Assembly (NCBI GenBank): GCA_009746045.1
Contig: RPFO01000072.1
Span: 1,833,269-1,897,268, forward strand
Length of the DNA: 64,000 bases
Direction: 5' to 3'
DNA from: Mesostigma viride
Lineage: Eukaryota > Streptophyta > Mesostigmatophyceae > Mesostigmatales > Mesostigmataceae
The translations under genes were made by a program, and so were the position numbers. Positions within the stretch are counted from its first letter, which is position 1, and each line of letters opens with the position of its first letter. A model generated the notes under the pieces. It searched no databases, had not been told where the DNA came from, and saw only the letters and a program-made list of their open reading frames with translations. Below are positions 14,481 through 64,000 of this stretch, piece by piece.

Positions 14481-14489
14481 GTCGGATAT

Positions 14490-30300: not shown

Positions 30301-33300
30301 TACTAAACGCTTCTTCCTGCATAATATAACTCCAATTCTACCATCCCAGGCACACATTCTACATTATTTATTGCTGCCAGATTTTCGGATTTGACCCCCG
30401 TGCTAATCTGTATGAAGAAAGGCGGTGACTTTTCAGATAGTGCATATCTGACTATGAAACTCCATACTAGAACATCGTTTTAAACCATCCGCCTAATTTG
30501 TTCGCTTGGATCTAGGCCCATTAGGAGAATTCTTACGGAACGCGCGTCGCCATGGCTACCACCGCACGAGGTGCGCGCATTGTGCATCAAAATTTCACGG
30601 TCTGGGGGTACCGTCGATACCGGCGTGATGTTTTGGCGCGAAAAAATGCGGGGGTGTCGCGTCACCTTAAGCCAGGTACAGCCAATCACAATGTCCGAGA
30701 ATCCTCCAACATCACTGCCGTAAACAAGGACATCAGTACCATCACGGAGGACAGAGCCGCGTGACTCACGACAGAAAATCGGGCCATGAAGAGCATCATC
30801 AAAGATCCCAGGCACTTGCTGCTGGCAGCATCAATGGCAAGGACAGGCTGAACGCACTACCCATGCCTCCCAGCAAACGAACGGCCCTCAGGACAGCCAG
30901 GCGGTCAGGTTGAGGAAGGACCGAAAATGCGGGCTAGACACCTGTTCAGATCACCTTGAGAAGGCTTGGTAGTGAAAAGGTTCAGGAAATAAAGGCACCT
31001 CACCACGTGCCACTCGGGTCAATGGAACTGGCCATTCCTGACCCGTTGCCACAAGAGAAGGGGAAAGGGGGGAAGGGCGGGGAGCATGATCTCACAGACT
31101 GGTGTGCAATTAAGTAGTGTTTGAAAAACTATACAGCACAACCAGGTCATACGCATATTATCTCTCGGAGTCCTGGCCCTGAGTACGGTAGTGAAAGTGA
31201 GATCGGTAGTTCGTGATCCAGATTCCAGTAGCCACGATTGCTGCCTGGCAGAGCCATCCACTTCATGGGCAGCAGGCATCCCATGGGGTGCACGGCATGT
31301 CAACATAACAATATCCCACTGGCAGGGTACCCAGTGCTGGGAACGTAACAGTGCCCAGTGCAGTTGGTAGCAAGCCTGACACCATGAGTGGTATAAAAGC
31401 CCTTTGCCCACCCTACAGCATCCTTGCGCTGCACATATACAAAAACTGCGTACTGAAACACATCCGCTTGGGGTCATTAGGGTAAAGGGATAGCTGACCT
31501 TGAGATTCGCCTCCTTGTTCGCACCGCTCGCGACCAGGTGCTTCACGACCTCCAGGTGGCCATTCTGTGCTGCAGCGTACAGCGGTGTGGCAGCATTCTG
31601 CAAGCACCAGCCCCACATGTCATCGTGAGGACCAGATGGAACGTGAGAACCCACTGAGCCAGGAGATGTGGCTGCAGTGAATGAAACAGACCTACGCGTC
31701 ATGCGCACACCCATGCACCTCATGGCCCCTGATCATGGCCGCAGCCAAACTCATGAGCCTGCCAGCGGCCCCACAGTTGTGCCTGCCTTTCCAACATTTT
31801 GCAGGCTAACTCATGTACCGCCAAGTGCAACGTCCAACCAGCCTCCACCCGAACTAACATCGCTGCAGAAAACAAGGGCATTGATACAACCACGGAGGAC
31901 GGGGCTTTACTGATGTGGCTGGGGATGAGCCGTGTGATCCTTGTGAGAGAGTGATGCCATAACGAACATCAGCAAACATTCCAGGCACTCAGTTGCTGCT
32001 GCCAGCATGGCATGTACAGGCTGAACGCACTGCATATGCCTCCCAGCAAACAAATGGCCCCCTCAGGACAGCCAGACAGTCAGGATGGGGAAGGCCTGAA
32101 GGCGCCGGCCAGACACCTATTCAGATCACCTTTAGAAGGCTTGGTAGTGAAAAGGTTCAGGAAATGGAGGCACCTTACCGCGTGCAACTCGGGTCAATGG
32201 AACTGGCCGTTCCTCACCCGTTGCCACAAGAGAAGGGGGGGAGGGGGCAAGGGCGGGGAACATGATCTCACAGGCCGGTGTGCAATTAAGTAGTATTTGA
32301 AAAGCTATACGGCACAACCAGGTCATATGCTTGTTATCTCTCGGAGTCCTCGCTCTGAGCACGGTAGTGAAAGTGAGATTGGTTGTCCGTGATCCAGATT
32401 CCAGTAGCCACGATTCCTGCCTGGCAGCGCCATCCACCTCATGGGCAGCAGGCATCCCATGGGGTGCACAGCTCGTCAACATCGCAATTTCCCACTGGCA
32501 GGGTGCCCGGTGCTGGGAACGTAACAGTGCCCAGTGGAGTTGGCAGCAAGCCTGACACCATCGGTGGTATAAAAGCCCTTTGCCCACCCTGTAGCATCAT
32601 TGCGCTGCACATATACCAAAACTGTGTGCAGAAGCACATCTGCTGGCGGCCATCAGGGTCTAGGAAAAGCTGACCTTGGTCTTCGCCTCCTTGTTCGCAC
32701 CGCTTGCAACCAGGTGCTTCACGACCTCCAGGTGGCCCTTCAGTGCTGCAATGTACAGCGGTGTCCAGTCATCCTGCAAGCAGCAGCCGCACATGTCCCC
32801 GTGAGGACCAGATGGAGCGTGAGAACCCACTGAGCGAGGGGATGTGTCTGCAGTGAATGAGACAGACCTACGCGTCATGCGCACACCCGTGGACCTCATG
32901 GCCCCCGATCATGGCCGCAGCCGAACTCATGAGCCTGCCAGTGGCCCCACAGTTGTGCCTGCATTTCCACCACTTTGCTGGCTAACTCATGTACCGCCAG
33001 ATACAACATGCAACTTGCCTCCACCCGAACTAACATCGCTGCAGAAAACAGGGGCATCAGTACAAGCACGGAAGACGGGGCTTTACTGATGTGGCTAGGG
33101 TCCGATGAGCCGTGTGATCCTTGTGAGAGAGTCATGCGATTAGGAATATCAGCAAACATGCCAGGCACTCAGTTGCTGCTGCCAGCATGGCACGGACAGG
33201 CTGAACGCAAGGCACATGCCTCCCAGCAAACAAATGGCCCCCTTAGGACAGCCAGGCGGTCAGGATGGGGAAGGCCTGAAAGCGCGGGCCATGCACCTGC

Positions 33301-36300
33301 TCAGATCACCTTGAAAAGGCCTGGTAGTGAAAAGGTTCAGGAAATGGAGGCCCCTTACCACGTGCAACTCGGGTCAATGGATTTGATCGTTCCTCACCCG
33401 TTGCCACAAGAGAAGGGGGGAGGGGGCAAGGGCGGGGAGCATGATCTCACAGGCCGGTGTGCAAGTAAGTAGTGTTTGGAAAACTATCCGGCACAATCAG
33501 GTCATGCGCGTGCTATCTCTCGGAGTCCTGGCCCTGAGTACGGTAGTGAAAGTGAGATCGGTAGTCCGTGATCCAGATTCCAGTAGCCACCAGTCCTGCC
33601 TGGCAGAGCCATCCACCTCCTGGGCAGCAGGCATCCCATGGGGTGCACAGCTCGTCAACAACGCAATTTCCCACTGGCAGGGTGCCCAGTGCTGGGAACG
33701 TAACAGCGCCACGTGGAGTTGGCAGCAAGCCTGACACCATCGGTGGTGTAAAAGCCCTTTGCCCACCCTACAGCATCATTGCGCTGCACATATACCAAAA
33801 CTGTGTGCAGAAGCACATCCGCTGGCAGACATCAGGGTCAAGGAAATGCTCACCTGGTCCTTCGCCTCCTTGTTTGCATCGCTCGCAACCAGGTGCTTCA
33901 CGACCTCCAGGTGGCCCTTCTGTGCCGCAATATGCAGCGGTGTCCAGTCATCCTGCAAGCAGCAGCCGCACATGTCCCCGTGAGGACCAGATGGAGCGTG
34001 AGAACCCACTGAGGGAGGGGATGTGTCTGCAGTGAATGAGACAGACCTACGCGTCATGCGCACACCCATGGACCTCATGGCCCCCGATCATGGCCGCAGC
34101 CGAACTCATGAGCCTGCCAGTGGCCCCACAGTTGTGCCTGCATTTCCACCACTTTGCTGGCTAACTCATGTACCGCCAGATACAACATGCAACTTGCCTC
34201 CACCCGAACTAACATCGCTGCAGAAAACAGGGGCATCAGTACAAGCACACAAGACGGGGCTTTACTGATGTGGCTAGGGTCCGATGAGCCGTGTGATCCT
34301 TGTGAGAGAGTCATGCGATTAGGAATATCAGCAAACATGCCAGGCACTCAGTTGCTGCTGCCAGCATGGCACGGACAGGCTGAACGCAAGGCACATGCCT
34401 CCCAGCAAACAAATGGCCCCCTCAGGACAGCCAGGCGGTCACGATGGGGAAGGCCCGAAAGCGCGGGCCACGCACCTGCTCAGATCACCATTAGAAGGCC
34501 TAGTAGTGAAAAGGTTCAGGAAATAAAGGCACCTTACCGCGTGCAACTCGGGTCAATGGATTTGATCGTCCCTTACCCGTTGCCACAAGAGAATGGGGAA
34601 GGGGGGAAGGGCGGGGAGCATGATCTCACAGACCGGTGTGCGATGAAGTAGTGCGTGAAAAACTATCCGGCACAACCAGGTCATACGCGTGCTATCTCTC
34701 GGATTCCTGGCCCTGAGTACGGTAGTGAAAGTGAGATCGGTAGTCCGTGATCCAGATTCCAGTAGCCAGCTTCATGCCTGGCAGAGCCATCCACCTCCTG
34801 GGCAGCAGGCATCCCATGGGGTGCACAGCTCGTCAACAACACAATTTCCCACTGGCAGGGTACCCGATGCTGGGAACGTAACAGCGCCACGTGGAGTTGG
34901 CAGCAAGCCTGAAACCATCCATGGTATAAAAGCCCTTTTCCCACCCTACAGCATCAATGCGCTACACATATACCAAAACTGTGTGCAGAAGCACATCCGC
35001 TGGCAGACATCAGGGTCAAGGAAATGCTCACCTGGTCCTTCGCCTCCTTGTTTGCATCGCTCGCAACCAGGTGCTTCACGACCTCCAGGTGGCCCTTCTG
35101 TGCCGCAATATGCAGCGGTGTCCAGTCATCCTGCAAGCAGCAGCCGCACATGTCCCCGTGAGGACCAGATGGAGCGTGAGAACCCACTGAGCGAGGGGAT
35201 GTGTCTGCAGTGAATGAGACAGACCTACGCGTCATGCGCACACCCATGGACCTCATGGCCCCCGATCATGGCCGCAGCCGAACTCATGAGCCTGCCAGTG
35301 GCCCCACAGTTGTGCCTGCATTTCCACCACTTTGCTGGCTAACTCATGTACCGCCAGATACAACATGCAACTTGCCTCCACCCGAACTAACATCGCTGCA
35401 GAAAACAGGGGCATCAGTACAAGCACGGAAGACGGGGCTTTACTGATGTGGCTAGGGTCCGATGAGCCGTGTGATCCTTGTGAGAGAGTCATGCGATTAG
35501 GAATATCAGCAAACATGCCAGGCACTCAGTTGCTGCTGCCAGCATGGCACGGACAGGCTGAACGCAAGGCACATGCCTCCCAGCAAACAAATGGCCCCCT
35601 CAGGACAGCCAGGCGGTCACGATGGGGAAGGCCCGAAAGCGCGGGCCACGCACCTGCTCAGATCACCATTAGAAGGCCTAGTAGTGAAAAGGTTCAGGAA
35701 ATAAAGGCACCTTACCGCGTGCAACTCGGGTCAATGGATTTGATCGTCCCTTACCCGTTGCCACAAGAGAATGGGGAAGGGGGGAAGGGCGGGGAGCATG
35801 ATCTCACAGACCGGTGTGCGATGAAGTAGTGCGTGAAAAACTATCCGGCACAACCAGGTCATACGCGTGCTATCTCTCGGATTCCTGGCCCTGAGTACGG
35901 TAGTGAAAGTGAGATCGGTAGTCCGTGATCCAGATTCCAGTAGCCAGCTTCATGCCTGGCAGAGCCATCCACCTCCTGGGCAGCAGGCATCCCATGGGGT
36001 GCACAGCTCGTCAACAACACAATTTCCCACTGGCAGGGTACCCGATGCTGGGAACGTAACAGCGCCCAGTGGAGTTGGCAGCAAGCCTGAAACCATCCAT
36101 GGTATAAAAGCCCTTTTCCCACCCTACAGCATCAATGCGCTACACATATACCAAAACTGTGTGCCGAAGCCCATCCAGTGCCGGCCATCAGGGTCAAGGA
36201 ATTGCTGACCTTGGTCTTCGCCTCCTTGTTCGCACCGCTCGCAACCAGGTGCTTCACGACCTCCAGGTGGCCATTCTGTGCTGCAATGTACAGCGGTGTC

Positions 36301-39300
36301 CAATCATCCTGCACACAGCGGCCACACATGTCCCAGTGAGGACCAGATGGAACGTGAGAACCCACTGAGCGAGGGGATGTGTCTGCAGTGAATAAAACAG
36401 ACCTACGCGTCATGCGCACACCCATGCACCTCATGGCCCCTGATCATGGCCACAGCCAAACTCATGAGCCTGCCAGCGGCCCCACAGTTGTGCCTGCCTA
36501 GTTTCCACCACTTTGTTGGCCAAGGTAAGTACCGCCAAGTACAACGTGCAACTTGCCTCCACCCGAACTAACATCGCTGCAGAAAACAAGGGCATCAGTA
36601 CAACCACGGAGGACAGGGCTTTACTGATGTGGCTGGGGATGAGCCGTGTCATCCTTGTGAGAAAGGCATGCCATTAGGAACATCGGCAAACATTCCAGGC
36701 AGTTGCTGCTGCCAGCATGGCACGGACAGGCTGAACGCACGGCATATGCCTCCCAGCAAACAAATGGCCCCTAGGACAGCCAGGCGGTCAGGATGGGGAA
36801 GGCCCGAAAGCGCGGGCCAGACACCTGCTCAGATCATCTTAAGAAGGCCTGGTAGTGAAAAGGTTCAGGAAATGGAGGCACTTCACCGCGTGCAACTCGG
36901 GTCATGGGTTTCACCCGTTCCTCACCCGTTGCCACAAGAGAAGGGGGGAGGGGGGAAGGGCGAGGAGCATGATCTCACCGGCCGGTGTGCAAATAAGTAG
37001 TGTTTGGAAAACTATCCGGCACAACCATGTCATACGCATGTTATCTCTCGGAGTCCTGGCCCTGAGTACGGTAGTGAAAGTGAGATCGGTAGTCCGTGAT
37101 CCAGATTCCAGTAGCCACGATTCCTGCCTGGCAGAGCCACCTGCCTCATGGGCAGCAGGCATCCCATGGGGTGCACAGCTCGTCAACATCCCAATTTCCC
37201 ACTGGCAGGGTGCCCAGTGTTGGGAGCGTAACAGTGCCCAGTGCAGTTGGCAGCAAGGCTGACACCATCGGTGGTACAAAAGCCCTTTGCCCACCCTACA
37301 GCATTATTGCGCTGCACATATACCAAAACTGTGTGACCAAGCGCATCCGCTGGCAGGCATCAGGGTCAAGGAAAAGCTGACCTTTTCCTTCGCCTCCTTG
37401 TTTGCACCGCTCGCAACCAGGTGCTTCACGACCTCCAGGTGGCCATTCTGTGCTGCAATGTACAGCGGTGTCCAGTCATCCTGCATGCAGCAGCCACACA
37501 TGTCTCCGTGAGGACCAGATGGAACGTGAGAACCCACTGAGCGAGGGGATGTGTATGCAGTGAATAAAACAGACCTACACGCCTCATGCGCACACCCATG
37601 CACCTCATGGCCCCTGATCATGGCCACAGCCAAACTCATGAGCCTGCCAGTGGCCCCACAGTTGTGCCTGCCTAGTTTCCACCACTTTGTTGGCCAAGTT
37701 AAGTACCGCCAAGTAAAACGTCTAACTAGCCTCCACCCTAACTAACAAACATGCAGAAAACAAGGGCATCAGTACAACCACGGAGGACGTGGCTTTACTG
37801 ATGTGGCTGGGGATAAGCCGTGTGATCCTTGTGAGAGAGTCATGCCATTCGGACTATCAGCAAACATGCCAGGCACTCAGTTGCTGCTGCAAGCGCGGCA
37901 CGGACAGGCTGAACGCACTGCACATGCCTCCCAGCAAACAAATGCCCCCCTCAGGACAGCCAGGCGGTCACGATGGGGAAGGCCCGAAAGCGCGGGCCAG
38001 ACACCTGCTCAGATCACCTTGAAAAGGCCTGGTAGTGAAAAGGTTCAGTAAATTGAGGCACCTCACCGCGTGCAACTCGGGTCAATGGAACTGGCTGTTC
38101 CTGACCCGTTGCCACAAGAGAAGGGGGGAGGGGGGAAGGGCGGGAAACATGATCTCACAGGCCAGTGTGCAATTAAGTAGTATTTGAAAAACTATCCGGC
38201 ACAACCATGTCATACGCGTGCTATCTCTCGAACTCCTCGCCCTCAGTACGGTAGTGAAAGTGAGATCGGTGGTCCGTGATCCAGATTCCAGTAGCCACGA
38301 GTCCTGCCTGGCAGACTATCCACCTCACGGGCAGCAGGCATCCCATGGAGTGCACAGCTCGTCAACATTGCAATTTCCCACCGGCAGGGTGCCCAGTGTT
38401 GGGAGCGTAACAGCGCCCAGTGCAGTTGGCAGCAAGGCTGACACCATCGGTGGTACAAAAGCCCTTTGCCCACCATACAGCATCATTGCGCTGCACATAT
38501 ACCAAAACTGTGTGCCGAAGCGCATCCGGTGCCGGCCATCAGGGTCAAGGAAATGCTGACCTTGGTCTTCGCCTCCTTGTTCGCACCGCTTGCAACCAGG
38601 TGCTTCACGACCTCCAGGTGGCCATTCTGTGCCGCAATATGCAGCGGTGTCCAGTCATCCTGCACACAGCAGCCAAACATGTTCCCGTGAGGACCAGATG
38701 GAACGTGAGAACCCACTGAGCGAGGGGATGTGGCTGCAGTGAATAAAACAGACCTACGCGCCATGCTCACACCCATGCACCTCATGGCCCCTGATCATGG
38801 CCACAGCCAAACTCATGAGCCTGCCAGCGGCCCCACAGTTGTGCCTGCCTAGTTTCCACCACTTTGTTGGCCAAGTTAAGTACCGCCAAGTACAACGTGC
38901 AACTTGCCTCCACCCGAACTAACAACGCTGCAGAAAACAAGGGCATGGGTACAACCACGGAGGACAGGGCTTTACTGATGTGGCTGGGGATGAGCCGTGT
39001 GATCCTTGTGAGAAAGTCATGCCATTAGGAACATCAGCAAACATGCCAGGCAGTTGCTGCTGCCAGCATGGCACGGACAGGCTGAGCGCACGGCATATGC
39101 CTCCCAGCAAACAGATGGCCCCTAGGACAGCCAGGCGGTCAGGATGGGGAAGGCCCGAAAGCGCGGGCCAGACACCTGCTCAGATCATCTTAAGATGGCC
39201 TGGTAGTGAAAAGGTTCAGGAAATGGAGGCACTTCACCGCGTGCAACTCGGGTCATGGGTTTCACCCGTTCCTCACCCGTTGCCACAAGAGAAGGGGGGA

Positions 39301-42300
39301 GGGGGGAAGGGCGAGGAGCATGATCTCACAGGCCGGTGTGCAAATAAGTAGTGTTTGGAAAACTATCCGGCACAACCATGTCATACGCATGTTATCTCTC
39401 GGAGTCCTGGCCCTGAGTACGGTAGTGAAAGTGAGATCGGTAGTCCGTGATCCAGATTCCAGTAGCCACGATTCCTGCCTGGCAGAGCCACCTGCCTCAT
39501 GGGCAACAGGCATCCCATGGAGTGCACAGCTCGTCAACATCGCAATTTCCCACTGGCAGGGTGCCCAGTGTTGGGAGCGTAACAGTGCCCAGTGCAGTTG
39601 GCAGCAAGGCTGACACCATCGGTGGTATAAAAGCCCTTTGCCCACCCTGTAGCATCATTGCGCTGCACATATACCAAAACTGTGTGCGGAAGCGCATCCG
39701 GTGCCGGCCATCAGGGTCAAGGAAATGCTGACCTTGGTCTTCGCCTCCTTGTTTGCACCGCTTGCAACTAGGTGCTTCAGGACCTCCAGGTGGCCATTCT
39801 CTGTCGCAGTATGCAGCGGTGTCCAGTCATCCTGCACACAGCAGCCAAACATGTTCCCGTGAGGACCAGATGGAACGTGAGAACCCACTGAGCGAGGGGA
39901 TGTGTCTGTAGTGAATAAAACAGACCTACGCGTCATGCGCACACCCATGCACCTCATGGCCCCTGATCATGGCCACAGCCAAACTCATGAGCCTGCCAGC
40001 GGCCCCACAGTTGTGCCTGCCTAGTTTCCACCACTTTGTTGGCCAAGGTAAGTACCGCCAAGTACAACGTGCAACTTGCCTCCACCCGAACTAACAACGC
40101 TGCAGAAAACAAGGGCATGGGTACAACCACGGAGGACAGGGCTTTACTGATGTGGCTGGGGATGAGCCGTGTGATCCTTGTGAGAAAGTCATGCCATTAG
40201 GAACATCAGCAAACATGCCAGGCAGTTGCTGCTGCCAGCATGGCACGGACAGGCTGAGCGCACGGCATATGCCTCCCAGCAAACAGATGGCCCCTAGGAC
40301 AGCCAGGCGGTCAGGATGGGGAAGGCCCGAAAGCGCGGGCCAGACACCTGCTCAGATCATCTTAAGATGGCCTGGTAGTGAAAAGGTTCAGGAAATGGAG
40401 GCACTTCACCGCGTGCAACTCGGGTCATGGGTTTCACCCGTTCCTCACCCGTTGCCACAAGAGAAGGGGGGAGGGGGGAAGGGCGAGGAGCATGATCTCA
40501 CAGGCCGGTGTGCAAATAAGTAGTGTTTGGAAAACTATCCGGCACAACCATGTCATACGCATGTTATCTCTCGGAGTCCTGGCCCTGAGTACGGTAGTGA
40601 AAGTGAGATCGGTAGTCCGTGATCCAGATTCCAGTAGCCACGATTCCTGCCTGGCAGAGCCACCTGCCTCATGGGCAACAGGCATCCCATGGAGTGCACA
40701 GCTCGTCAACATCGCAATTTCCCACTGGCAGGGTGCCCAGTGTTGGGAGCGTAACAGTGCCCAGTGCAGTTGGCAGCAAGGCTGACACCATCGGTGGTAC
40801 AAAAGCCCTTTGCCCACCCTACAGCATCATTGCGCTGCACATACACCAAAACTGTGTGCCGAAGCGCATCCGGTGCCGGCCATGAGGGTCAAGGAAATGC
40901 TGACCTTGGTCTTCGCCTCCTTGTTTGCACCGCTCGCAACCAGGTGCTTCACGACCTCCAGGTGGCCATTCTCTGTCGCAGTATGCAGCGGTGTCCAGTC
41001 ATCCTGCACACAGCAGCCAAACATGTTCCCGTGAGGACCAGATGGAACGTGAGAACCCACTAAGCGAGGGGATGTGTGTGCAGTGAATAAAACAGACCTA
41101 CGCGTCATGCGCACACCCATGCACCTCATGGCCCCTGATCATGGCCACAGCCAAACTCATGAGCCTGCCAGCGGCCCCACAGTTGTGCCTGCCTAGTTTC
41201 CACCACTTTGTTGGCCAAGTTAAGTACCGCCAAGTACAACGTGCAACTTGCCTCCACCCGAACTAACATCGCTGCAGAAAACAAGGGCATCAGTACAACC
41301 ACGGAGGACAGGGCTTTACTGATGTGGCTGGGGATGAGCCGTGTGATCCTTGTGAGAAAGTCATGCCATAAGGAACATCAGCAAACATTCCAGGCACTCA
41401 GTTGCTGCTGCCAGCATGGCACGGACAGGCTGAAGGCACGGCATATGCCTCCCAGCAAACAGATGGCCCCCTCAGGACAGCCAGGCGGTCAGGATGGGGA
41501 AGGCCCGAAAGCGCGGGCCAGACACCTGCTCAGATCATCTTAAGATGGCCTGGTAGTGAAAAGGTTCAGGAAATGGAGGCACTTCACCGCGTACAACCTG
41601 GGTCATGGGTTTCACCCGTTCCTCACCCGTTGCCACAAGAGAAGGGGGGAGGGGGGAAGGGCGAGGAGCATGATCTCACAGGCCGGTGTGCAAATAAGTA
41701 GTGTTTGGAAAACTATCCGGCACAACCATGTCATACGGCACAACCATGTTATCTCTCGGAGTCCTGGCCCTGAGTACGGTAGTGAAAGTGAGATCGGTAG
41801 TCCATGATCTAGATTCCAGTAGCCACGATTCCTGCCTGGCAGAGCCACCTGCCACATGGGCAGCAGGCATCCCATGGAGTGCACAGCTCGTCAACATCGC
41901 AATTTCCCACTGGCAGGGTGCCCAGTGTTGGGAACGTAACAGTGCCCAGTGCAGTTGGCAGCAAGGCTGACACCATCGGTGGTATAAAAGCCCTTTGCCC
42001 ACCCTACAGCATCATTGCGCTGCACATACACCAAAACTGTGTGCCGAAGCGCATCCGGTGCCGGCCATGAGGGTCAAGGAAATGCTGACCTTGGTCTTCG
42101 CCTCCTTGTTTGCACCGCTCGCAACCAGGTGCTTCACGACCTCCAGGTGGCCATTCTCTGTCGCAGTATGCAGCGGTGTCCAGTCATCCTGCACACAGCA
42201 GCCAAACATGTTCCCGTGAGGACCAGATGGAACGTGAGAACCCACTAAGCGAGGGGATGTGTGTGCAGTGAATAAAACAGACCTACGCGTCATGCGCACA

Positions 42301-54300: not shown

Positions 54301-57300
54301 TGCGGCCCGCATGGCACGGACAGGCTGAATGCACTGAAAAAGCCTCCCTGCAAACAAACGGCCCTCAGGACAGCCAGGCGGTCAGGATGGGGAAGGCCCG
54401 ACAACGTGGGCCAGACACCTGTCCAGATCACCTTGAGAAGGCCTGGTAGTTAAAAGTTCAGGAAATGGAGGCACCTCAACGCATGAAACACAGGTCAATG
54501 GATTTGGCCGTTCCTCACCCGTTGCCACAAGAGAAGGGGGGGAGGGGGGAAGGGCCGGGAACATGATCTCACAGGCCGGTGTGTGATTAAGTTGTACTTG
54601 AAAAACTATCTGGCACAACGATGTCATAGGCATATTATCTCTCGGATTCAGCGCCCTGAAAACGGTGATGAAAGTAAAATCGGAAGTCCGTGATCCAGAT
54701 TCGAGTGGCCGCGATTCCTGCCCGGCAAAGCCATCCACCTCATAGGCAGCAGGCATCCCAGGGGGTGCACAGCTTGTCAACATCACAAAATCCCACTGGC
54801 AAAGTGCCCAGTGCTGGGAACGTGACAGCACCCCATGAAGTTGGTAGCAAGCCCGAAACCATCGGTGGCAAAGCCCTTTGCCCACCTAACAACATGATTG
54901 AATTGCTGATATACCAAAACTGTGCGTGGAAGCACATCCGCTGGTGGCCATCACGGTCAAGGAAAAGCTGACCTTGCTCTTCGCTTCCTTGTTCGCACCG
55001 CTCGCAACCAGGTGCTTCACGACCTCCAGGTGGCCCTTCTCTGATGCAATGTACAGCGGTGTGGCATCATTCTGCACGCAGCAGCCACACATGTTCCCGT
55101 GAGGACCAGATGGAACGTGAGAACCCACTGAGCGAGGGGATGTGTCTGCAGTGAATGAGACAGACCTACGCGTCATGCGCGCACCCATGCACCTCACGGC
55201 CCCTGATCATGGCCACAGCCAAACTCATCAGCCTGCCAGCGGCCCCACAGTTTTGCCTGCCTAGTTTCCACCACCGACTTCGTTGGCTAACTAAAGGACC
55301 GCCAAGTACAACGTCCAACTAGCCTCCACCCTCACAAACATCGCTGGAGAAAACAAGGGCATGGGTACAACCACGGAGGACGGGGCTTTACTGATGTGGC
55401 TAGGGATAAGCCGTGTGAACCTGGTGAGAGAGTCATGCCATTAACAACATTCGCAGACATTCCAGGCTGCTGCTGCGGCCAGCATGGCACGGACAGGCTG
55501 AACGCACTGCATATGCCTCCCAGCAAACAAACAGCCCCCTCAGGACAGCAAGCAAGGCGGTCAGGATGGGGAGGGCACGAAAACGTGGGCCAGACACCTG
55601 TTCAGATCACCTTTAGAAGGCCTGGTAGTGAAAAAGTTCAGGAAATGGAGGCACCTCACCGCGTGCAACTCGGGTCAATGAATTCCCCAGTTCCTCGCCC
55701 GTTGCCACAAGAGAAGGGGGGAGGGGGGAAGGGCAAGGAACATGATCTCACAGGCCGGTGTGCAATTAAGTAGTAATTGAAAACCTATCCGGCACAACCA
55801 CGTCATACACATGAAATCTCTCGGATTCTTTGCCCCGAGTACGGTAGTGAGAGTGCGATCGGTCGTCCGTGATCCAGATTCCAGTAGCCACGATTCCTGC
55901 CTGCCAGAGCAATCCACCTCATGGGCAGCAGGCATCTTATGGGGTTCACTGCTCGTCAACATCACAATATCCCACTGGCAGGGTGCCCAGTACTGGGAAT
56001 GTAACAGCACCCCGTGAAGCCGGTAGCAAGCCTGACACCATCGGTGGTGGAGCCCTTTGCCCACTCTACAACATGATTGCGCTGCACATATACCAAAACT
56101 GTGTGACCAAGCGCATCCGCTGGCAGGCATCAGGGTCAAGTAAAAGCTGACCTTGGTCTTCGCATCCTTGTTTGCACCGCTCGCAACCAGGTGCTTCACG
56201 ACCTCCAGGTGGCCATTCTCTGCCGCCGTATGCAGTGGTGTGGCATCATCCTGCACACAGCAGCCAAGCATGCCCTCGTGAGGACCAGATGGAACGTGAG
56301 AACCCACTGAGCGAGGGGATGTGTCTGCAGTGAATGAGACAGACCTACGCGTCATGCGCACACCCGTGCACCTCACGACCCCTGATCATGGCCATAGCCA
56401 AACCCATGAGCCTGCCAGCAGCCCCACAGTTGTGCCTGCCTAGTTTCTACCACTTCGTTGGCCATGGGAAGTACCGCCAAGTACAACCTCCAACCAGCCT
56501 CCACCCGAACTAACAACGATGCAGAAAACAAGGGCATGGGTACAACCACGGAGGACGGGGCTTTACTGATGTGGCTGGGGATGAGCCGTGTGATCCTTGT
56601 GAGAGAGTGATGCCATTAGGAACATCAGCAAACATTGCAGGCACTCAGTTGCTGCTGCCAGCATGGCACGGACAGGCTGAACGCACTGCACATGCCTCCC
56701 AGCAAACAAATGGCCCCCTCAGGACAGCCAGGCAGTCAGGATGGGGAAGGCATGAAGGCGCCGGCCAGACACCTGTTCAGGTCACCTTTAGAAGGCCTGG
56801 TAGTGAAAGGTTCAGGAAATGGAGGCAGCTCACCGCGTGCAACTCCGGTCAATGGAACTGGCCGTTCCTCACCCGTTGCCACAAGAGAAGGGGGGGAGGG
56901 GGGAAGGGCGGGGAGCATGATCTCACAGGCCGGTCTGCAAGAAGTAATTGAATAACTATCCGACACAACGAGCTCATGCAAGTGCCATCTCTCGGACTCC
57001 TTGCCCTGAGTACGATAGTGAAAGTGAGATCGGTAGTCCGTGATCCAGATTCCAGTAGCCACAAGTCCTGCCTGGCAGAGCCATCCGCCTCATGGGCAGC
57101 AGGCATCCCATGGGGTGCACAGCTCGTCAACATTGCAATTTCCCACTGGCAGGGTGCCCAGTGCTGGGAACGTAACAGCGCCCCGTGGAAACGGCAGCAA
57201 GCCTGACACCACTAGTTCTAAAGCCCTTTGCCTACCCTACAGCATCATGGCGCTGCACATATACCAAAACTGTGCGCAGAAGCACATCCGCTGGCAGCCA

Positions 57301-60300
57301 TGAGGGTCAAGGAAATGCTGACCTCGGTCTTCGCCTCCTTGTTCGCACCGCTCGCAACCAGGTGCTTCACGACCTCCAGGTGGCCATTCTGTGCTGCAAT
57401 ATGCAGCGGTGTCCAATCATCCTGCAAGCAGCAGCCACACATGTTCCCGTGAGGACCAGATGGAACGTGAGAACCCACTAAGCGAGGGGATGTGTCTGCA
57501 GAGAATAAAACAGACCTTCGCGGCATGCGCACACCCGTGGACCTCATGGCCCCTGATCATAGCCACACCCAAACTCATGAGCCTGCCAGCGGCCCCACAG
57601 CTTGTGCCTGCCTTTCCACCACTTTGTAGGCTTACTCAAGTACCACCAAGTACAACATCCAACTACCCTCCACCCTGACTAACAACGCTGCAGAAAACAA
57701 GGGCATTGGTGCAACCACGGAGGACGGGGCTTTACTGATGTGGCTGGGGATAAGCCGTGTGATCCTTGTGCGAGAGTGATGCCATGAGGAACATCGGCAA
57801 ACATTCCAGGCACTCAGTTGCTGCGTCCAGCATGGCATGGACAGGCTGAACGCACTGCATATGCCTCCCAGCAAACAAACGCCCCCCTCAGGACAGCCAG
57901 GCAGTCAGGATAAGGAAGGCCCCAAAGCGCGGGCCAGACACCTATTCAGATCACCATGCGAAGGCCTGTTAGTGAAAAAGTTCAGGATATGGAGGCACCT
58001 CACCGCGTGCGACTCGGGTCAATGGATTTGGCCGCTCCTCATCCGTCAACAGAAGGGGGGAGGGGGAAAGGGCGAGGAACATGATCTCACAGGCCGGTGT
58101 GCCATTAAGTAGTATTTGAAAAACTATCCAGCACAACCGGGTCATGTGCGTGCTGTCTCTCGGATTCCTGCCCTGCTTACGGTAGTGAAGGTGAGATCGG
58201 TAGTCCGTGGTCCAGATTCCAGTAGCCACAACTCCTGCTTGGCAGAGCCATCCACCTCATGGGCAGCAGGCATCCCATGGGGTGCACTGCTTGTCAACAT
58301 CGCACTTTCCCACTGGCAGGGTGCCCAGTGCTGGGAACGTAACAGCGCCCAGTGGAGTTGGCAGGAAGCCTGACACCATCGGTGGTATAAAAGCACTTTG
58401 CCCACCCTACAACATGATGGCATTGCTCATGTAAACCAAATCTATGTGTGGAGGCACATCCGCTTGCGGCCATCAGGGTAAAGGAAAAGCTGACCTTGGC
58501 CTTCGCCTCCTTGTTCGCACCGCTCGCAACCAGGTGCTTCACGACCTCCAGGTGGCCATTCTCTGCCGCAAGGTACAGCAGCGTGGCATCATGCTGCGCG
58601 CAGCGGCCACACATGTCCACGTGAAGACCAGATGGAACGTGAGAACGCACTAAGCGAGGGGATGTGTCTGCAGGGAATGAAACAGACCTACGCGTCATGC
58701 GCACACCCATGCACCTCATGGCCCCTGATCATCACCACAGCCCAACTCCTGAGCCTGCCAGCGGCCCCACAGTTGTGCCTGCCTAGTTTCCACCAATTCC
58801 TCCGATAACTAAAGTACCGCCAAGTACAACATCCAAAAAAGCCTCCACCCAAACTAACATCGCTACAGAAAACAAGGGCATTGGTACAAACACGGAGGAC
58901 GGGCTTTACTGATGTGGCTGGGGATGAGCCGTGTGATCCTTGTGAGAGAGTGATGCCATAAGGAACATCAGCAAACATTCCAGGCAGTTGCTGCTGCCAG
59001 CATGGCACGGACAGGCTGAGCGCACTGCACATGCCTCCCAGCAAACAAATGGCCACCTCAGGACAGCCAGGCGGTCAGGATGGGGAAGGCCCCAAAACGC
59101 GGGCCAGACAACTGGACAGATCACCTTTAGAAGGCCTGGTACTGAAAAGGTGCAGGAAATGGAGGCACATGACCGCGTGCAACTCCGGTCAATGAATTTG
59201 GCCGTTCCTCACCCGTTGCCACAAGAGAAGGCGGGAGGGGGGAAGGGCGGGGAACACGATCTCACAGGCCAGTCTGCAAGAAGTAATTGAATAACTATCC
59301 GACACAACCATCTCATGCGCGTGATATCTCTTGGATTCCTGCCCTGCTTACGGTAGTGAAGGTGAGATCGGTAGTCCATGATCCAGATTCCAGTAGCCAC
59401 AAGTCCTGCCTGGTAGAGCCATCCGCCTCATGGGCAGCAGGCATCCCATGGGGTGCACAGCTCGTCAACATCCCCATTTCCCACTGGCAGGGTGCCCAGT
59501 GCTGGGAACGTAACAGTGCCCAGTGGAGTTGGCAGCAAGCCTGACACCATCGGTTCTAAAGCCCTTTGCCCACCCTACAGCATCATTGCGCTGCACATAT
59601 ACCAAAACTGTGCGCAGAAGCGCATCCGCTGGCAGCCATCAGGGTCGAGGAAATGCTGACCTTGAGTTTCGCCTCCTTGTTCGCACCGCTCGCAACCAGG
59701 TGCTTCACCACCTCCAGGTGGCCATTCCATGCCGCAATATGCAGCGGCGTCCAGTCATCCTGCACACAGCAGCCACACATGTTCCCGTGAGGACCAGACG
59801 GAACGTGAGAACCCACTAAGCGAGGGGATGTGTCTGCAGTGAATGAGACAGACCTACGCGTCATGCGCACACCCATGGACCTCATGGCCCCTGATCATCA
59901 CCACAGCCAAACTCATGAGCCTGCCAGCGGCCCCACAGGTTGTGCCTGCCTTTCCACCACTTTGTTGGCTAACTCAAGTACCACCAAGTACAACATCCAA
60001 CTAGCCTCCACCCTGATTAACAACGCTGCAGAAAACAAGGGCATTGGTACAACCACGGAGGACGGGGCTTTACTGATGTGGCTGGGGATGAGCCGTGTGA
60101 TCCTTGTGAGAGAGTGATGCCATGAGGAACATCGGCAAACAGTCCAGGCAGTTGCTGCTGGCAGCATGGCACGGACAGGCTGAACGCACTGCACATGCCT
60201 CCCAGCAAACAAATGCCCCCCTCAGGACAGCCAGGCGGTCATGATGGGGAAGGCCCCAAAGCGCGGGCCAGACACCTGGACAGATCACCTTTAGAAGGCC

Positions 60301-63269
60301 TGGTAGTGAAAAAGTTCAGGATATGGAGGCACCTCACCGCGTGCAACTCGGGTCAATGGATTTGGCCGCTCCTCACCCGTTGCCACAAGATAAGGCGGGA
60401 GGGAGGAAGGGCGGGGAACATGATCTCACAGGCCGGTCTGCAAGAAGTAATTGAATAACTATCTGACACAACCAGCTCATGCAAGTGCTATCTCTCGGAC
60501 TCCTCGCCCTGAGTACGGTAGTGAAAGTGAGATCGGTAGTCCATGATCCAGATTCCAGTAGCCACAAGTCCTGCCTGGCAGAGCGATCCACCTCATGGGC
60601 AGCAGGCATCCCAGGGGGTGCACAGCTCGTCAACATCCCCATTTCCCACTGGCAGGGTGCCCAGTGCTGGGAACGTAACAGCGCCCAGTGGAGTTGGCAG
60701 AAAGCCTGAAAGCATCGGTGGTATAAAAGCACTTTTCCCACCCTACAACATGACGGCATTGCTCATGTAAACCAAATCTATGTGTGGAGGCACATCCGCT
60801 TGCGGCCATCAGGGTCAAGGAAAAGCTGACCTTGGCCTTCGCCTCCTTGTTTGCACCGCTTGCAACCAGGTGCTTCACGACCTCCAGGTGGCCATTCTGT
60901 GCCGCAATGTACAGCGGCGTGGCATCATGCTGCACGCAGCAGCCACACATGTCCACGTGAGGACCAGATGGAACGTGAGAACGCACTAAGCGAGGGGATG
61001 TGTCTGCAGGGAATGAAACAGACCTACGCGTCATGCGCACACCCATGCACCTCATGGCCCCTGATCATCACCACAGCCCAACTCCTGAGCCTGCCAGCGG
61101 CCCCACAGTTGTGCCTGCCTAGTTTCCACCAATTCCTCCGATAACTAAAGTACCGCCAAGTACAACATCCAAAAAAGCCTCCACCCAAACTAACATCGCT
61201 ACAGAAAACAAGGGCATTGGTACAACCACGGAGGACGGGCTTTACTGATGTGGCTGGGGATGAGCCGTGTGATCCTTGTGAGAGAGTGATGCCATAAGGA
61301 ACATCAGCAAACATTCCAGGCAGTTGGTGCTGCCAGCATGGCACGGACAGGCTGAGCGCACTGCACATGCCTCCCAGCAAACAAATGGCCACCTCAGGAC
61401 AGCCAGGCGGTCAGGATGGGGAAGGCCCCAAAACGCGGGCCAGACACCTGGACAGATCACCTTTAGAAGGCCTGGTACTGAAAAAGTTCAGGAAATGGAG
61501 GCACATGACCGCGTGCAACTCCGGTCAATGAATTTGGCCGTTCCTCACCCGTTGCCACAAGAGAAGGCGGGAGGGGGGAAGGGCGGGGAACATGATGTCA
61601 CAGGTCGGTCTGCAAGAAGTAATTGAATAACTATCCGACACAACCAGCTCATGCAAGTGCTATCTCTCGGACTCCTCGCCCTGAGTACGGTAGTGAAAGT
61701 GAGATCAGTAGTCCATGGTCCAGATTCCAGTAGCCACAAGTCCTGCCTGGCAGAGCGATCCACCTCATGGGCAGCAGGCATCCCATGGGGTGCATAGCTC
61801 GTCAACATCCCCATTTCCCACTGGCAGGGTGCCCAGTGCTGGGAACGTAACAGCGCCCAGTGGAGTTGGCAGAAAGCCTGAAACCATCGGTTCTAAAGCC
61901 CTTTGCCCACCCTACAGCATCATGGCGCTGCACATATACCAAAACTGTGCGCAGAAGCACATCCGCTGGCAGCCATCAGGGTCGAGGAAATGCTGACCTC
62001 GGTCTTTGCCTCCTTGTCCGCACCGCTCGCAACCAGGTGCTTCACGACCTCCAGGTGGCCATTCTGTGTCGCAAGGTACAGCGGCGTGGCATCATGCTGC
62101 ACACAGCAGCCACACATGTTCCTGTGAGGACCAGACGGAACGTGAGAACCCACTAAGCGAGGGGATGTGTCTGCAGTGAATGAGACAGACCTACGCGTCA
62201 TGCGCACACCCGTGGACCTCATGGCCCCTGATCATGGCCACAGCCAAACTCATAAGCCTGCCAGCGGCCCCACAGCTTGTGCCTGCCTTTCCACCACTTT
62301 GTAGGCTTACTCAAGTACCACCAAGTACAACGTCCAACTAGCCTCCACCCAAACTAACATCGCTGCAGAAAACTAGGGCATTGGTACAACCACGGAGGAC
62401 GGGGCTTTCCTGATGTGGCTGGGGATGAGCCGTGTGATCCTTGTGAGAGAGTCATGCAATTAGGACTATCAGCAAACATTCCAGGCTGTTGCTGCGGCCA
62501 GCATGGCACGGACAGGCTGAACGCACTGCACATGCCTCCCAGCAAACAAATGGCCCCCTCAGGACAGCCAGGCGGTCAGGATGGGGAAGGCCCGAAAGCG
62601 CGGGCCAGACACCTGCTCAGATCACCTTGAGAAGGCCTGGTAGTGAAAAAGTTCAGGATATGGAGGCACCTCACCGCGTGCAACTCGGGTCAATGCATTC
62701 CGCCCTTCCTCACCCGTTGCCACAAGAGAAGGCGGGAGGGGGGAAGGGCGGGGAACACGATCTCACAGGCCAGTGTGCAATTAAGTAGTATTTGAAAAAC
62801 TATCCGACACAACCAGCTCATGCGCGTGCTGTCTCTTGGATTCCTGCCCTGAGTGCGATAGTGAAAGTGAGATCGGTAGTCCGCGATCCAGATTCAAGTA
62901 GCCACGATTCCTGCTTGGCAGAGCCATCCACCTCATGGGCAGCAGGCATCCCAGGGGGTGCACAGCTCGTCAACATCCCCATTTCCCACTGGCAGGGTGC
63001 CCAGTGCTGGGAACCTAACAGCGCCCAGTGGAGTTGGCAGAAAGCCTGAAAGCATCGGTGGTATAAAAGCACTTTGCCCACCCTACAACATGATGGCATT
63101 GCTCATGTAAACCAAATCTATGTGTGCAGGCACATCCGCTTGCGGCCATCAGGGTAAAGGAAAAGCTGACCTTGGCCTTCGCCTCCTTGTTCGCACCGCT
63201 CGCAACCAGGTGCTTCACGACCTCCAGGTGGCCATTCTGTGCCGCAAGGTACAGCGGCGTGGCATCATG
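27262..63269 (-). CDS. Giant ankyrin-repeat gene, 5' end outside window
   Basis: Proposed model: 28 exons of 99 nt inside the tandem array plus a terminal exon at 27,262-27,357, giving at least 955 residues, nearly all ankyrin. Every array exon has an AG acceptor (usually tgcag) and a GT donor (gtcagc, gtgagc or gtaagc) in phase 0, so any set of exons splices in frame. Each repeat fits the 33-residue ankyrin consensus, with TPL(H/Y) opening helix 1, then GHLEVVKHLVAS and GANKEAK. Stacked repeats would form a long solenoid for protein binding. No other domain, signal peptide or membrane segment is visible, but the N-terminus is missing. Units could also belong to several shorter transcripts; only RNA data can tell. 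Confidence 0.6.
27358..30689. other. Presumed long intron or spacer, no exon recognised
   Basis: It lies between the terminal ankyrin exon and the first array unit. It is AT-rich from about 28,750 to 29,400, with a short ggggggta/tacccccc palindrome near 28,905. No ankyrin-like exon was found on the minus strand, and other open frames are short and featureless. Confidence 0.4.
31499..31597 (-). CDS. Ankyrin exon, unit 1 (most 3' in array)
   Basis: Variable residues: 1 N, 2 A, 3 A, 7 Y, 8 A, 11 Q, 12 N, 25 G, 31 N, 32 L, 33 K. It is the most divergent array copy (A at position 2, N at 31), as expected for an edge unit that escapes homogenisation. Donor gtcagc. Confidence 0.85.
32675..32773 (-). 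CDS. Ankyrin exon, unit 2
   Basis: Variable residues: 1 D, 3 W, 7 Y, 8 I, 11 L, 12 K, 25 G, 32 T, 33 K. Leucine at position 11 is shared only with unit 13. Confidence 0.85.
33854..33952 (-). CDS. Ankyrin exon, unit 3
   Basis: Variable residues: 1 D, 3 W, 7 H, 8 I, 11 Q, 12 K, 25 D, 32 D, 33 Q. The donor is gtgagc rather than the usual gtcagc. The encoded repeat is identical to that of unit 4. Confidence 0.85.
35032..35130 (-). CDS. Ankyrin exon, unit 4
   Basis: Same residues as unit 3 (D at 25, D at 32, Q at 33) and the same gtgagc donor. The flanking intron is nearly identical to that of unit 3, a recent duplication. Confidence 0.85.
36210..36308 (-). CDS. Ankyrin exon, unit 5
   Basis: Variable residues: 1 D, 3 W, 7 Y, 8 I, 11 Q, 12 N, 25 G, 32 T, 33 K. 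This matches the array consensus. Confidence 0.85.
37382..37480 (-). CDS. Ankyrin exon, unit 6
   Basis: Variable residues as unit 5 except 32 E. A 2-nt insertion about 95 nt upstream of the acceptor (near 37,576) shifts the open frame outside the exon, while the exon itself is intact. Confidence 0.85.
38561..38659 (-). CDS. Ankyrin exon, unit 7
   Basis: Variable residues: 1 D, 3 W, 7 H, 8 I, 11 Q, 12 N, 25 G, 32 T, 33 K. Confidence 0.85.
39733..39831 (-). CDS. Ankyrin exon, unit 8
   Basis: Variable residues: 7 H, 8 T, 10 T, 11 E, 12 N, 32 T, 33 K. It carries the only V18L change in the otherwise fixed GHLEVVKH framework. Its intron is nearly identical to that of unit 9. Confidence 0.85.
40905..41003 (-). 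CDS. Ankyrin exon, unit 9
   Basis: Residues 8 T, 10 T and 11 E as in unit 8, but with V18 restored. The repeat is identical to unit 10. Confidence 0.85.
42090..42188 (-). CDS. Ankyrin exon, unit 10
   Basis: Identical repeat to unit 9. The introns on both sides carry the same 13-bp duplication (near 41,735 and 42,920), marking a very recent copy event. Confidence 0.85.
43273..43371 (-). CDS. Ankyrin exon, unit 11
   Basis: Variable residues: 3 W, 7 Y, 8 V, 11 Y, 12 S, 32 E, 33 K. Tyrosine at position 11 is shared only with unit 19. Confidence 0.85.
44372..44470 (-). CDS. Ankyrin exon, unit 12
   Basis: Variable residues: 3 C (unique), 7 Y, 8 I, 11 W, 12 D, 32 G, 33 W. Donor gtaagc, shared only with unit 20. 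The downstream intron has lost about 80 bp. Confidence 0.85.
45550..45648 (-). CDS. Ankyrin exon, unit 13
   Basis: Variable residues: 3 W, 7 H, 8 T, 11 L, 12 N, 26 V, 32 T, 33 K. Upstream intron markers (agaccta cacgcatcatg, gagatcacgcccc) reappear only in unit 20. Confidence 0.85.
46748..46846 (-). CDS. Ankyrin exon, unit 14
   Basis: Variable residues: 1 N, 3 A, 7 Y, 8 I, 10 S, 11 E, 12 K, 22 I, 32 S, 33 K. Nearly the same as unit 21. Confidence 0.85.
47922..48020 (-). CDS. Ankyrin exon, unit 15
   Basis: Variable residues: 3 W, 7 H, 8 I, 11 E, 12 N, 32 D, 33 E. Confidence 0.85.
49098..49196 (-). CDS. Ankyrin exon, unit 16
   Basis: Variable residues: 3 A, 7 H, 8 I, 11 Q, 12 R, 25 S, 32 A, 33 K. 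It has the 2-nt upstream insertion also seen in units 6, 17 and 18. Confidence 0.85.
50275..50373 (-). CDS. Ankyrin exon, unit 17
   Basis: As unit 16 but 12 S. Serine at 25 is shared only with unit 16; the two are recent duplicates. Confidence 0.85.
51452..51550 (-). CDS. Ankyrin exon, unit 18
   Basis: Variable residues: 3 S (unique), 7 Y, 8 I, 11 Q, 12 N, 25 G, 32 E, 33 K. Confidence 0.85.
52630..52728 (-). CDS. Ankyrin exon, unit 19
   Basis: Variable residues: 3 W, 7 Y, 8 V, 11 Y, 12 N, 26 V, 32 E, 33 K. Close to unit 11, eight units away. Confidence 0.85.
53802..53900 (-). CDS. Ankyrin exon, unit 20 (mosaic)
   Basis: Variable residues: 1 N, 3 A, 7 Y, 8 I, 11 Q, 12 K, 32 G, 33 W. The donor side (gtaagc, G32-W33) matches unit 12, while intron markers upstream of the acceptor match unit 13, so the unit looks recombinant. 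Confidence 0.85.
54973..55071 (-). CDS. Ankyrin exon, unit 21
   Basis: Variable residues: 1 N, 3 A, 7 Y, 8 I, 10 S, 11 E, 12 K, 32 S, 33 K. It differs from unit 14 only at residue 22 (V versus I). Confidence 0.85.
56152..56250 (-). CDS. Ankyrin exon, unit 22
   Basis: Variable residues: 3 A, 7 H, 8 T, 11 E, 12 N, 29 D, 32 T, 33 K. Confidence 0.85.
57323..57421 (-). CDS. Ankyrin exon, unit 23
   Basis: Variable residues: 3 W, 7 H, 8 I, 11 Q, 12 N, 32 T, 33 E. Confidence 0.85.
58495..58593 (-). CDS. Ankyrin exon, unit 24
   Basis: Variable residues: 1 H, 3 A, 5 L (the only loss of the TPL proline), 7 Y, 8 L, 11 E, 12 N, 32 A, 33 K. Flanks match units 26 and 28. Confidence 0.85.
59661..59759 (-). 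CDS. Ankyrin exon, unit 25
   Basis: Variable residues: 3 W, 7 H, 8 I, 11 W, 12 N, 32 L, 33 K. Confidence 0.85.
60831..60929 (-). CDS. Ankyrin exon, unit 26
   Basis: Variable residues: 1 H, 3 A, 7 Y, 8 I, 11 Q, 12 N, 32 A, 33 K. Confidence 0.85.
61998..62096 (-). CDS. Ankyrin exon, unit 27
   Basis: Variable residues: 1 H, 3 A, 7 Y, 8 L, 10 T, 11 Q, 12 N, 27 D, 32 T, 33 E. Confidence 0.85.
63171..63269 (-). CDS. Ankyrin exon, unit 28 (most 5' in window)
   Basis: Variable residues: 1 H, 3 A, 7 Y, 8 L, 11 Q, 12 N, 32 A, 33 K. The unit's upstream intron reaches the window edge; the next exon would be expected near 64,340, outside it. Confidence 0.85.
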
Positions 63270-64000
63270 CTGCACGCAGCGGCCACACATGTCCACGTGA
63301 GGACCAGATGGAACGTGAGAACGCATTAAGCGAGGGGATGTGTCTGCAGGGAATGAGACAGACCTACGCGTCATGCGCACACCCATGGACCTCATGGCCC
63401 CTGATCATCACCACAGCCAAACTCATGAGACTGCCAGCGGCCCCACAGCTTGTGCCTGCCTAGTTTCCACCAACTCCTTCGATAACTCAAGTACCGCCAA
63501 GTACAACATCCAACTAGCCTCCACCCGAACTAACAACGCGGCAGAAAACAAGGGCATTGGTACAACCACGGAGGACGGGGCTTTACTGATGTGGCTGGGG
63601 ATAAGCCGTGTGATCCTTGTGAGAGGGTCATGCCATTAGGAACATCAGCAAACATTCCAGGCAGTTGCTGCGTCCAGCAGGGCACGGACAGGCTGAACAC
63701 ACTGCATATGCCTCCCAGCAAACAAATGGCCCCCTCAGGACAGCCATGCGGTCACGATGGGGAAGGCCCCAAAACGCGGGCCAGACACCTGGACAGATCA
63801 CCTTTAGAAGGCCTGGTAAAGAAAAGGTGCAGGAAAAAGAGGCACATGACCGCGTGCAACTCCGGTCAATGAATTTGGCCGTTCCTCACCCGTTGCCACA
63901 AGAGAAGGCGGGAGGGAAGAAGGGCGGGGAACACGATCTCACAGGCCGGTCTGCAAGAAGTAATTGAATAACTATCCGACACAACCAGCTCATGCAAGTG

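Follow-up and report, generated by a model that had tools for sequence, protein, structure and literature searches.

What does a long run of tandem units, each carrying one short ankyrin exon, encode in the genome of the streptophyte alga Mesostigma viride, and what might such an array be for? The units lie in a stretch of 64,000 nucleotides (contig RPFO01000072.1 of GenBank assembly GCA_009746045.1, positions 1,833,269 to 1,897,268; hereafter the window), which a first-pass annotation, made from the letters and their open reading frames, had described as an expandable ankyrin gene. We find that the solenoid it recognized is not a bare one, and belongs instead to a larger gene whose product is predicted to begin with a U-box and a protein kinase domain. 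The array is probably the recognition arm of this cytoplasmic, receptor-like U-box-kinase protein, evolving by in-frame change of its units.

Direct reading of the minus strand between 63269 and 31499 agreed with the proposed structure: all 28 exons are exactly 99 nt long, stop-free and in phase 0, with AG upstream and GT downstream, and neighboring units (n=27) are spaced by 1099-1198 bp, close to the annotated period of about 1.17 kb. Each exon encodes one ankyrin repeat (e.g. DDWTPLYIAAQNGHLEVVKHLVASGANKEAKTK), and 23 of the 33 repeat positions are unchanged in 26 or more of the 28 repeats. The one window exon scanned singly, u28, matches the Pfam Ank model (PF00023) with 31.8 bits against a cut-off of 21.1, and all 28 score 72-90 bits against a repeat model built from the same exons. 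The array had been expected to run off the window, and six more 99-nt exons do lie upstream of it, so that 34 of 34 ankyrin exons in the whole gene have AG/GT borders. The span given earlier, 30690..64000, located the array and was incomplete, as the terminal exon and the upstream parts of the gene lie outside it (Table 1). Conservation of frame, splice sites and core rules out a non-coding or chance repeat; long plus-strand open reading frames occur in the array, but the ankyrin frame and the splice sites are on the minus strand. Scans of the window against Rfam and for tRNAs gave no match.

The first exon begins MDPPAQFLCPIS and ends in phase 0 before GTGAGG; its frame opens MDPPAQFLCPISCDIMRDP, with the U-box starting from the first residues. 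A tblastn search with P0115 (jgi/Mesvir1/21410/Mv20885-RA in EukProt) recovered this head in one frame at 73946-72759, with 87% identity over 398 residues. Pfam assignment was made on P0115 (U-box 45.4, cut-off 21.4; Pkinase 121.2, cut-off 31.7; Ank also above its cut-off), and the window gene's own head is assigned through its 87% identity to that protein. We accordingly read the head as a putative U-box E3 ligase joined to a protein kinase, both activities being predicted. The catalytic lysine, DLKPxN, DFG and APE are retained in all five array-linked heads examined, and the residue before the catalytic aspartate in these five is leucine, not arginine. Plant receptor kinases with such a non-RD motif (no arginine before the aspartate), where characterized, are described as acting in microbial recognition, the usual residue being cysteine or glycine (PMC3411088, in the portion bearing on these kinases). 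By analogy, the leucine-type head might be a hint, at most, of microbial recognition. At the other end of the gene, the terminal exon alone is a marginal match to Pfam Ank (14.2 bits, E 0.06); its homologues, likewise with an AG acceptor and a stop codon, end the arrays in sister gene B, where identity is 97% over 31 residues, and in sister gene A, where it is 81% over 27. As all exons are symmetric and in phase 0, the predicted protein stays in frame with the linker exon (1598 residues) or without it (1566 residues), and skipping of the linker would be expected to preserve the frame.

The same build recurs elsewhere in the genome. A motif scan allowing up to three mismatches gave 201 matches, against none in a reversed control, and the genome search that had been proposed for other 99-nt ankyrin exon arrays found them on C1690, C1735, C2023, C777 and C1790. 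Genes A (14 repeats) and B (50 repeats), both on C1690 (6899003-6920257 and 6953260-7017245), are constructed like the window gene, W (34 repeats), with AG/GT at 64 of 64 exons and with heads and C-caps present. C2023 holds three heads, the first of which opens a gene at 978791-994682, read whole, with an N-cap, 10 repeats and a C-cap, and one repeat exon there has a GC donor; on C1735 a head, linker, N-cap and the first three repeats fall within the 10 kb read. Genes with a head, N-cap, repeats and a C-cap (AG acceptor and stop) carry 34, 14, 50 and 11 repeats, which bears out the claim that repeats are gained and lost without breaking the frame. The equation of one exon with one repeat likewise stood in all 98 exons of W, A and B (34 + 14 + 50), which are symmetric, with no change of length and no stop. 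Among repeat-model matches in eight array-bearing regions, 132 of 135 have both AG and GT, the misses being two partial matches (C1790:1334368 and C777:4353025) and the GC donor (C2023:988131). The donors of 84 introns from the three genes are mostly GTCAGC (64), GTAAGC (10) and GTGAGC (7). In these introns 143 of 1058 columns with <5% gaps are invariant (13.5%), as against all four columns of the splice dinucleotides, and in W the introns show 0.54 indels per pair per 99 nt, against no change of exon length.

We then asked where the repeats vary. Over 378 pairs of window units the mean divergence per site is 0.122 in exons and 0.116 in introns (the intron mean includes the last unit, which was cut arbitrarily, and is 0.107 when taken over the gene's 30 clean units); the introns of the middle 80% of pairs differ by 8-14%. 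Within the exon, the first 25 nt diverge by 0.205 per site and the middle by 0.043. As contact codons we took 33, 1, 3, 11, 12 and 24, which we presume to be the positions randomized in DARPins, shifted by means of the TPLH motif. Surface positions of such ankyrin repeats are described as forming the paratope (PMC8683736, in the part concerned). Counts on intron trees covered 30/34 units of W, 12/14 of A and 42/50 of B, without the N-cap, the last exon and introns outside 1000-1150 bp. In W, A and B respectively, changes per site at positions 1+2 of contact codons number 4.00, 2.50 and 5.50, those in introns 1.24, 0.64 and 1.80, and those in other codons 1.15, 0.72 and 1.56 at positions 1+2 and 2.59, 1.07 and 3.52 at third positions. 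Contact codons thus outpace introns 3-4 fold in each gene, in counts that exon-intron recombination inflates, as is seen at third positions. When the tree is built from the exons, contact codons have 7.50 changes per site, against 6.07 at fourfold third positions and 1.50 at core positions. The ratio of nonsynonymous to synonymous differences (pN/pS) in the core is 0.16, 0.18 and 0.24 in W, A and B, and dividing pN of the six contact codons by the core synonymous rate gives 1.46, 1.72 and 1.30. The six DARPin-equivalent positions also have higher entropy than the other 27 (95 internal exons; Mann-Whitney P 0.0019). The annotation's idea of a varied binding surface is borne out by this concentration of variation on the ankyrin binding face; from the contact-codon excess and the low core pN/pS, frame and fold appear conserved and change directed to that face.

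Three further points were considered. A mutational hot spot at the exon edge is partly ruled out, the first pure intron bin diverging by 0.104 and the last two full bins by 0.124 and 0.144; three or four inner intron bins at 0.20-0.22 make this exclusion only partial. A block without synonymous change (codons 13-16, 19 and 20 of W) fails in part, as positions 18 and 22 change often in gene B. The divergence of 0.234 of the last unit, at the array edge, came from an arbitrary 1081-bp cut reaching past homology, and its homologous 716 nt are 86.9% identical, so that no divergence of the array edge is claimed.

Several points weigh against reading the array as a spliced recognition arm under selection. 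Five of the six DARPin positions are among the eight most variable repeat positions, a set chosen after the data had been seen, and one of the six, position 24, is nearly fixed (Ser in 92 of 95 internal exons). At the variable codons pS is also raised, to 0.285-0.344, by multi-base codon swaps, so that pN/pS there is near 1 to 1.5; positive selection on the contact codons is suggested by the counts, not proven. There is a different view, to which we give a modest chance: the long arm might hold on to a house-keeping partner that is large or polymeric (cytoskeleton, scales or membrane proteins), with repeat number tuning length and avidity and the surface changing by relaxation. The best-scoring solved matches to P0115 would suit this scaffold, being long animal ankyrin stacks, namely Ankyrin-1 and Ankyrin-2, which act as scaffolds, as would the near-constancy of 23 of the 33 positions across the window repeats. 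Relaxation alone, however, should not exceed the intron rate, as the contact codons do in three genes even if recombination inflates the count, and of the 84 repeats 77 are distinct, with 69 of the 84 distinct at the eight variable positions alone.

Splicing of the 99-nt exons into one arm is predicted from their borders and from one gene model. The first 400 residues of P0115 are the head at C2023:978836, and the model continues through the linker, an N-cap exon (981738), exons at 982449, 990494, 991652 and 992793 and a C-cap (994620); its junctions fall exactly on the predicted exon borders, and its five ankyrin exons match letter for letter. Here too there are points on the other side. P0115 comes from annotation and not from a sequenced cDNA, and its source strain and assembly are uncertain; it omits six exons between 982449 and 990494, having 5 repeats against 11 in this assembly, and the gap could reflect an array that is truly shorter, skipped exons, collapse during assembly or an error in the model. 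The -RA ending of its name we take to be in the style of MAKER. The CCAC 1140 genome paper reports annotation by MAKER with assembled transcripts as evidence (PMC7027972), and the NIES-296 paper annotation by PASA and EVM (PMC6947507) and, in section 2.1, a mean intron of 1142 bp in the published assembly. A retrocopy that would prove splicing was absent among the 150 of 1043 candidates scored, where long frames of joined repeats belong to other ankyrin genes (34-63% identity). Acceptors lack a marked pyrimidine tract (C+T 48%, versus 54% mid-intron), and the linker donor of W is AT, the genes A and B and those on C1735 and C2023 having GT; the AT could be a genuine lesion, an error at that base, or a tolerated change. 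The AT donor, the GC donor on C2023, the six exons missing from P0115 and the minisatellite and retroelement-like frame that interrupt other arrays would all fit a largely dead array, that is, selfish tandem DNA grown by unequal crossing-over, most copies of which are not spliced into protein. We regard this as quite unlikely, as the 98 exons of the three genes have kept their length and are free of stops though their introns are about 11% divergent and bear indels, the core pN/pS is low, and head, N-cap and C-cap are open in W, A, B and the first C2023 gene.

The movement of units could also be followed in part. Exon and intron had been thought to duplicate as one unit; this is not always so, the nearest relatives of an exon and of its following intron differing in 19 of 28 units (with 2 ties). 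Units u18 and u19 differ mostly within their first 210 columns, so that the copied piece seems to be an intron with the next exon, not an exon with its intron. The neighboring window units 18-21 and 24-26, with introns 1-4% apart, are evidently recent copies, and gene B holds three successive, nearly identical copies of a block of three repeats (exons at C1690:6982521-6991908). The nearest relative of an intron lies in the same gene in 72 of 84 cases, most often in the adjacent unit (20) or three units off (13). We infer that unequal exchange is the simplest cause of unit gain and loss. Against the exact repeat numbers, near-identical units may have been miscounted in assembly. That repeat number and order as a whole arose by misassembly of a few real units, as units with introns only 1-2% apart and the shorter P0115 of uncertain source might suggest, is very improbable given an intron difference of 8-14% far above read error, the same build at several loci, and a published NIES-296 assembly described as built with 113x PacBio and optical maps (PMC6947507 section 2.1).

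Returning to the receptor-like reading, the protein would run from the U-box through a kinase without arginine before the catalytic aspartate, a linker, an N-cap and 33 variable repeats to a C-cap. Units would be gained and lost one at a time or several together, always in frame, through unequal crossing-over of introns that resemble one another; the arm would bind a diverse or fast-changing protein target, and binding would switch or direct the kinase and ubiquitin-ligase head, so that the receptor might ubiquitinate or phosphorylate upon binding, as its domain set suggests. The most likely role would be to recognize, within the cell, proteins of foreign or symbiont origin, with a possible immune function for the arm. 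Genomes of 'Ca. Megaira' are reported as recovered from Mesostigma sequencing libraries (PMC10132079, in the part concerned), and its proteins are a possible target. A bolder and rather doubtful extension is a DARPin-like repertoire in which exons are duplicated, deleted and possibly skipped in splicing, so that arms would differ between individuals, strains or single cells; it would be independent of NLRs and of the brown-algal receptors, and would perhaps read intracellular bacteria such as 'Ca. Megaira'.

DARPins themselves share with this protein the caps, the 33-residue internal repeats and a constant framework with varied paratope positions; they are man-made and have few internal repeats and no enzymatic head, unlike the predicted protein here. 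Partial domain likeness is also seen in the ankyrin kinases RIPK4 and ANKK1, the plant RING-ankyrin E3 ligase XB3 and plant U-box kinases, several of which act in immune signaling; we know of none among these types with U-box, kinase and ankyrin in that order and one exon per repeat. The closest system found in the literature is that of the brown-algal LRR-ROC-COR (ROCO) genes (PMC11378527), which, in the part of that account bearing on them, have one repeat per exon, uniform exon length and phase and one fixed signaling domain, show exon shuffling, diversifying selection on the repeats and alternative splicing, and are proposed as candidate immune receptors. Those genes join 72-nt phase-2 exons of leucine-rich repeats (LRR) to a ROC-COR GTPase in stramenopiles, whereas here 99-nt phase-0 ankyrin exons are joined to a U-box-kinase head in a streptophyte. 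The brown-algal NB-ARC-TPR genes (Teng 2023, Zambounis 2012, via PMC11378527) likewise combine an exon-shuffled solenoid with a signaling domain, with TPR and NB-ARC in place of ankyrin and U-box-kinase. With these domains differing from both LRR/ROC-COR and TPR/NB-ARC, the Mesostigma genes seem to work like the ROCO class without being members of those families. In a study of nebulin, IG and EGF domain repeats (PMC1553488), several domains are duplicated at once, in some families along exon borders, as here; the borders in nebulin lie inside domains, and the relevant part of that study claims no fast-changing binding face. The word 'ankyrin' does not occur in the main text of either Mesostigma genome paper (PMC6947507, PMC7027972), and our search, mostly outside the subscription literature, found neither exon-per-repeat ankyrin arrays nor U-box-kinase-ankyrin receptors as the subject of any title or abstract. 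If the reading is right, exon-per-repeat receptor arms would have at least two origins among algae, differing in repeats and heads, and one of these would lie close to the root of the lineage that gave rise to land plants. With modular exons, 11-50 repeats and a nearly constant head, these genes would be a clean natural system for the evolution of repeat number and paratope and for asking whether exons are skipped to give variants, and they bear on how algae of the plant lineage might recognize intracellular bacteria before or beside NLRs.

A survey of heads (113 of 182 candidates scored) recovered seven at least 90% identical to P0115, eight at 59-82% and six at 44-47%, near full length and stop-free. 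About 1 kb downstream of a distant head on C1480 lies a 410-residue frame with six uninterrupted ankyrin repeats; assuming, as we infer, that the two are one gene, the exon-per-repeat build seems not general to the family. In the Pfam column for 240 relatives among the matches listed, only P0115 combines U-box, kinase and Ank, and only P0115, among the best 120 of 5126 proteins, has a 33-residue stretch matching at 28 of 33 positions, the next best matching at 24. A second protein search, considered by overall identity and not by 33-residue stretches, gave at most 60% (best 120 of 3464 proteins). Arrays with no head in the stretch read are those on C1690 at 7.05 Mb, on C777 and on C1790. The last (C1790:1334368-1350508; L027, L028) is a second 99-nt exon array with another repeat type (LLASGADKDAK), AG/GT at 8 of 9 matches, introns filled with minisatellite and, within the 20 kb examined, no U-box-kinase head. 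On C777 an open frame of 1280 residues (4354525-4358364; L032), which from its look we take to be a copia-type retroelement, lies near a stray ankyrin exon. A tandem cluster at C1107:652064-1348148 has 23 kinase matches, many in frames of about 1160 residues, and the Mesostigma protein P0020 (Mesvir1/15757) presents another receptor-like ankyrin architecture, in which a TIR domain follows nine ankyrin repeats.

Table 1. Parts of the window gene, in window coordinates and in order of transcription
Feature	Position	Strand	Remarks
gene part in window (3' part)	27262..64000	-	5' part extends to 73991 (C113:1907259); whole gene C113:1860530-1907259
first exon, U-box + kinase	73991-72753	-	1239 nt; C113:1906021-1907259
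linker exon	72252-72157	-	96 nt; upstream of window
N-cap ankyrin exon	70946-71044	-	99 nt; upstream of window; VGQTPLHRAARAGHLNLVQRLVANGANMEAKDT
five ankyrin exons	from 64344, 65504, 67248, 68421, 69587	-	99 nt, AG/GT; upstream of window
ankyrin exon u01	63171..63269	-	99 nt, AG/GT; seventh ankyrin exon of gene
ankyrin exon u02	61998..62096	-	99 nt, AG/GT
ankyrin exon u03	60831..60929	-	99 nt, AG/GT
ankyrin exon u04	59661..59759	-	99 nt, AG/GT
ankyrin exon u05	58495..58593	-	99 nt, AG/GT
ankyrin exon u06	57323..57421	-	99 nt, AG/GT
ankyrin exon u07	56152..56250	-	99 nt, AG/GT
ankyrin exon u08	54973..55071	-	99 nt, AG/GT
ankyrin exon u09	53802..53900	-	99 nt, AG/GT
ankyrin exon u10	52630..52728	-	99 nt, AG/GT
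ankyrin exon u11	51452..51550	-	99 nt, AG/GT
ankyrin exon u12	50275..50373	-	99 nt, AG/GT
ankyrin exon u13	49098..49196	-	99 nt, AG/GT
ankyrin exon u14	47922..48020	-	99 nt, AG/GT
ankyrin exon u15	46748..46846	-	99 nt, AG/GT
ankyrin exon u16	45550..45648	-	99 nt, AG/GT
ankyrin exon u17	44372..44470	-	99 nt, AG/GT
ankyrin exon u18	43273..43371	-	99 nt, AG/GT
ankyrin exon u19	42090..42188	-	99 nt, AG/GT
ankyrin exon u20	40905..41003	-	99 nt, AG/GT
ankyrin exon u21	39733..39831	-	99 nt, AG/GT
ankyrin exon u22	38561..38659	-	99 nt, AG/GT
ankyrin exon u23	37382..37480	-	99 nt, AG/GT
ankyrin exon u24	36210..36308	-	99 nt, AG/GT
ankyrin exon u25	35032..35130	-	99 nt, AG/GT
ankyrin exon u26	33854..33952	-	99 nt, AG/GT
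ankyrin exon u27	32675..32773	-	99 nt, AG/GT
ankyrin exon u28	31499..31597	-	99 nt, AG/GT
terminal exon, C-terminal capping half-repeat	27357-27262	-	96 nt; AG acceptor, phase 0; RGRRGDTALDVAKRFKRSEVVQFLEQHNAGR + TAA

The rest of the window holds a plus-strand fragment of another ankyrin gene (986-1579 and 1936-2034; Pfam Ank 24.2 bits, array model 18.7 bits) and, on the minus strand, a protein kinase open reading frame of 393 residues (12705-13886; Pkinase 33.4 bits), for which no relative at E 0.001 was found among the 7999 candidates scored. Two mutually related proteins, at 7518-8927 on the minus and 10650-11995 on the plus strand, have the look of what we take to be LINE ORF1. An 86-bp tandem repeat in 5.6 copies (14489-14969) and CATC and CCCT microsatellites (9301-9512 and 10036-10442) are also present.

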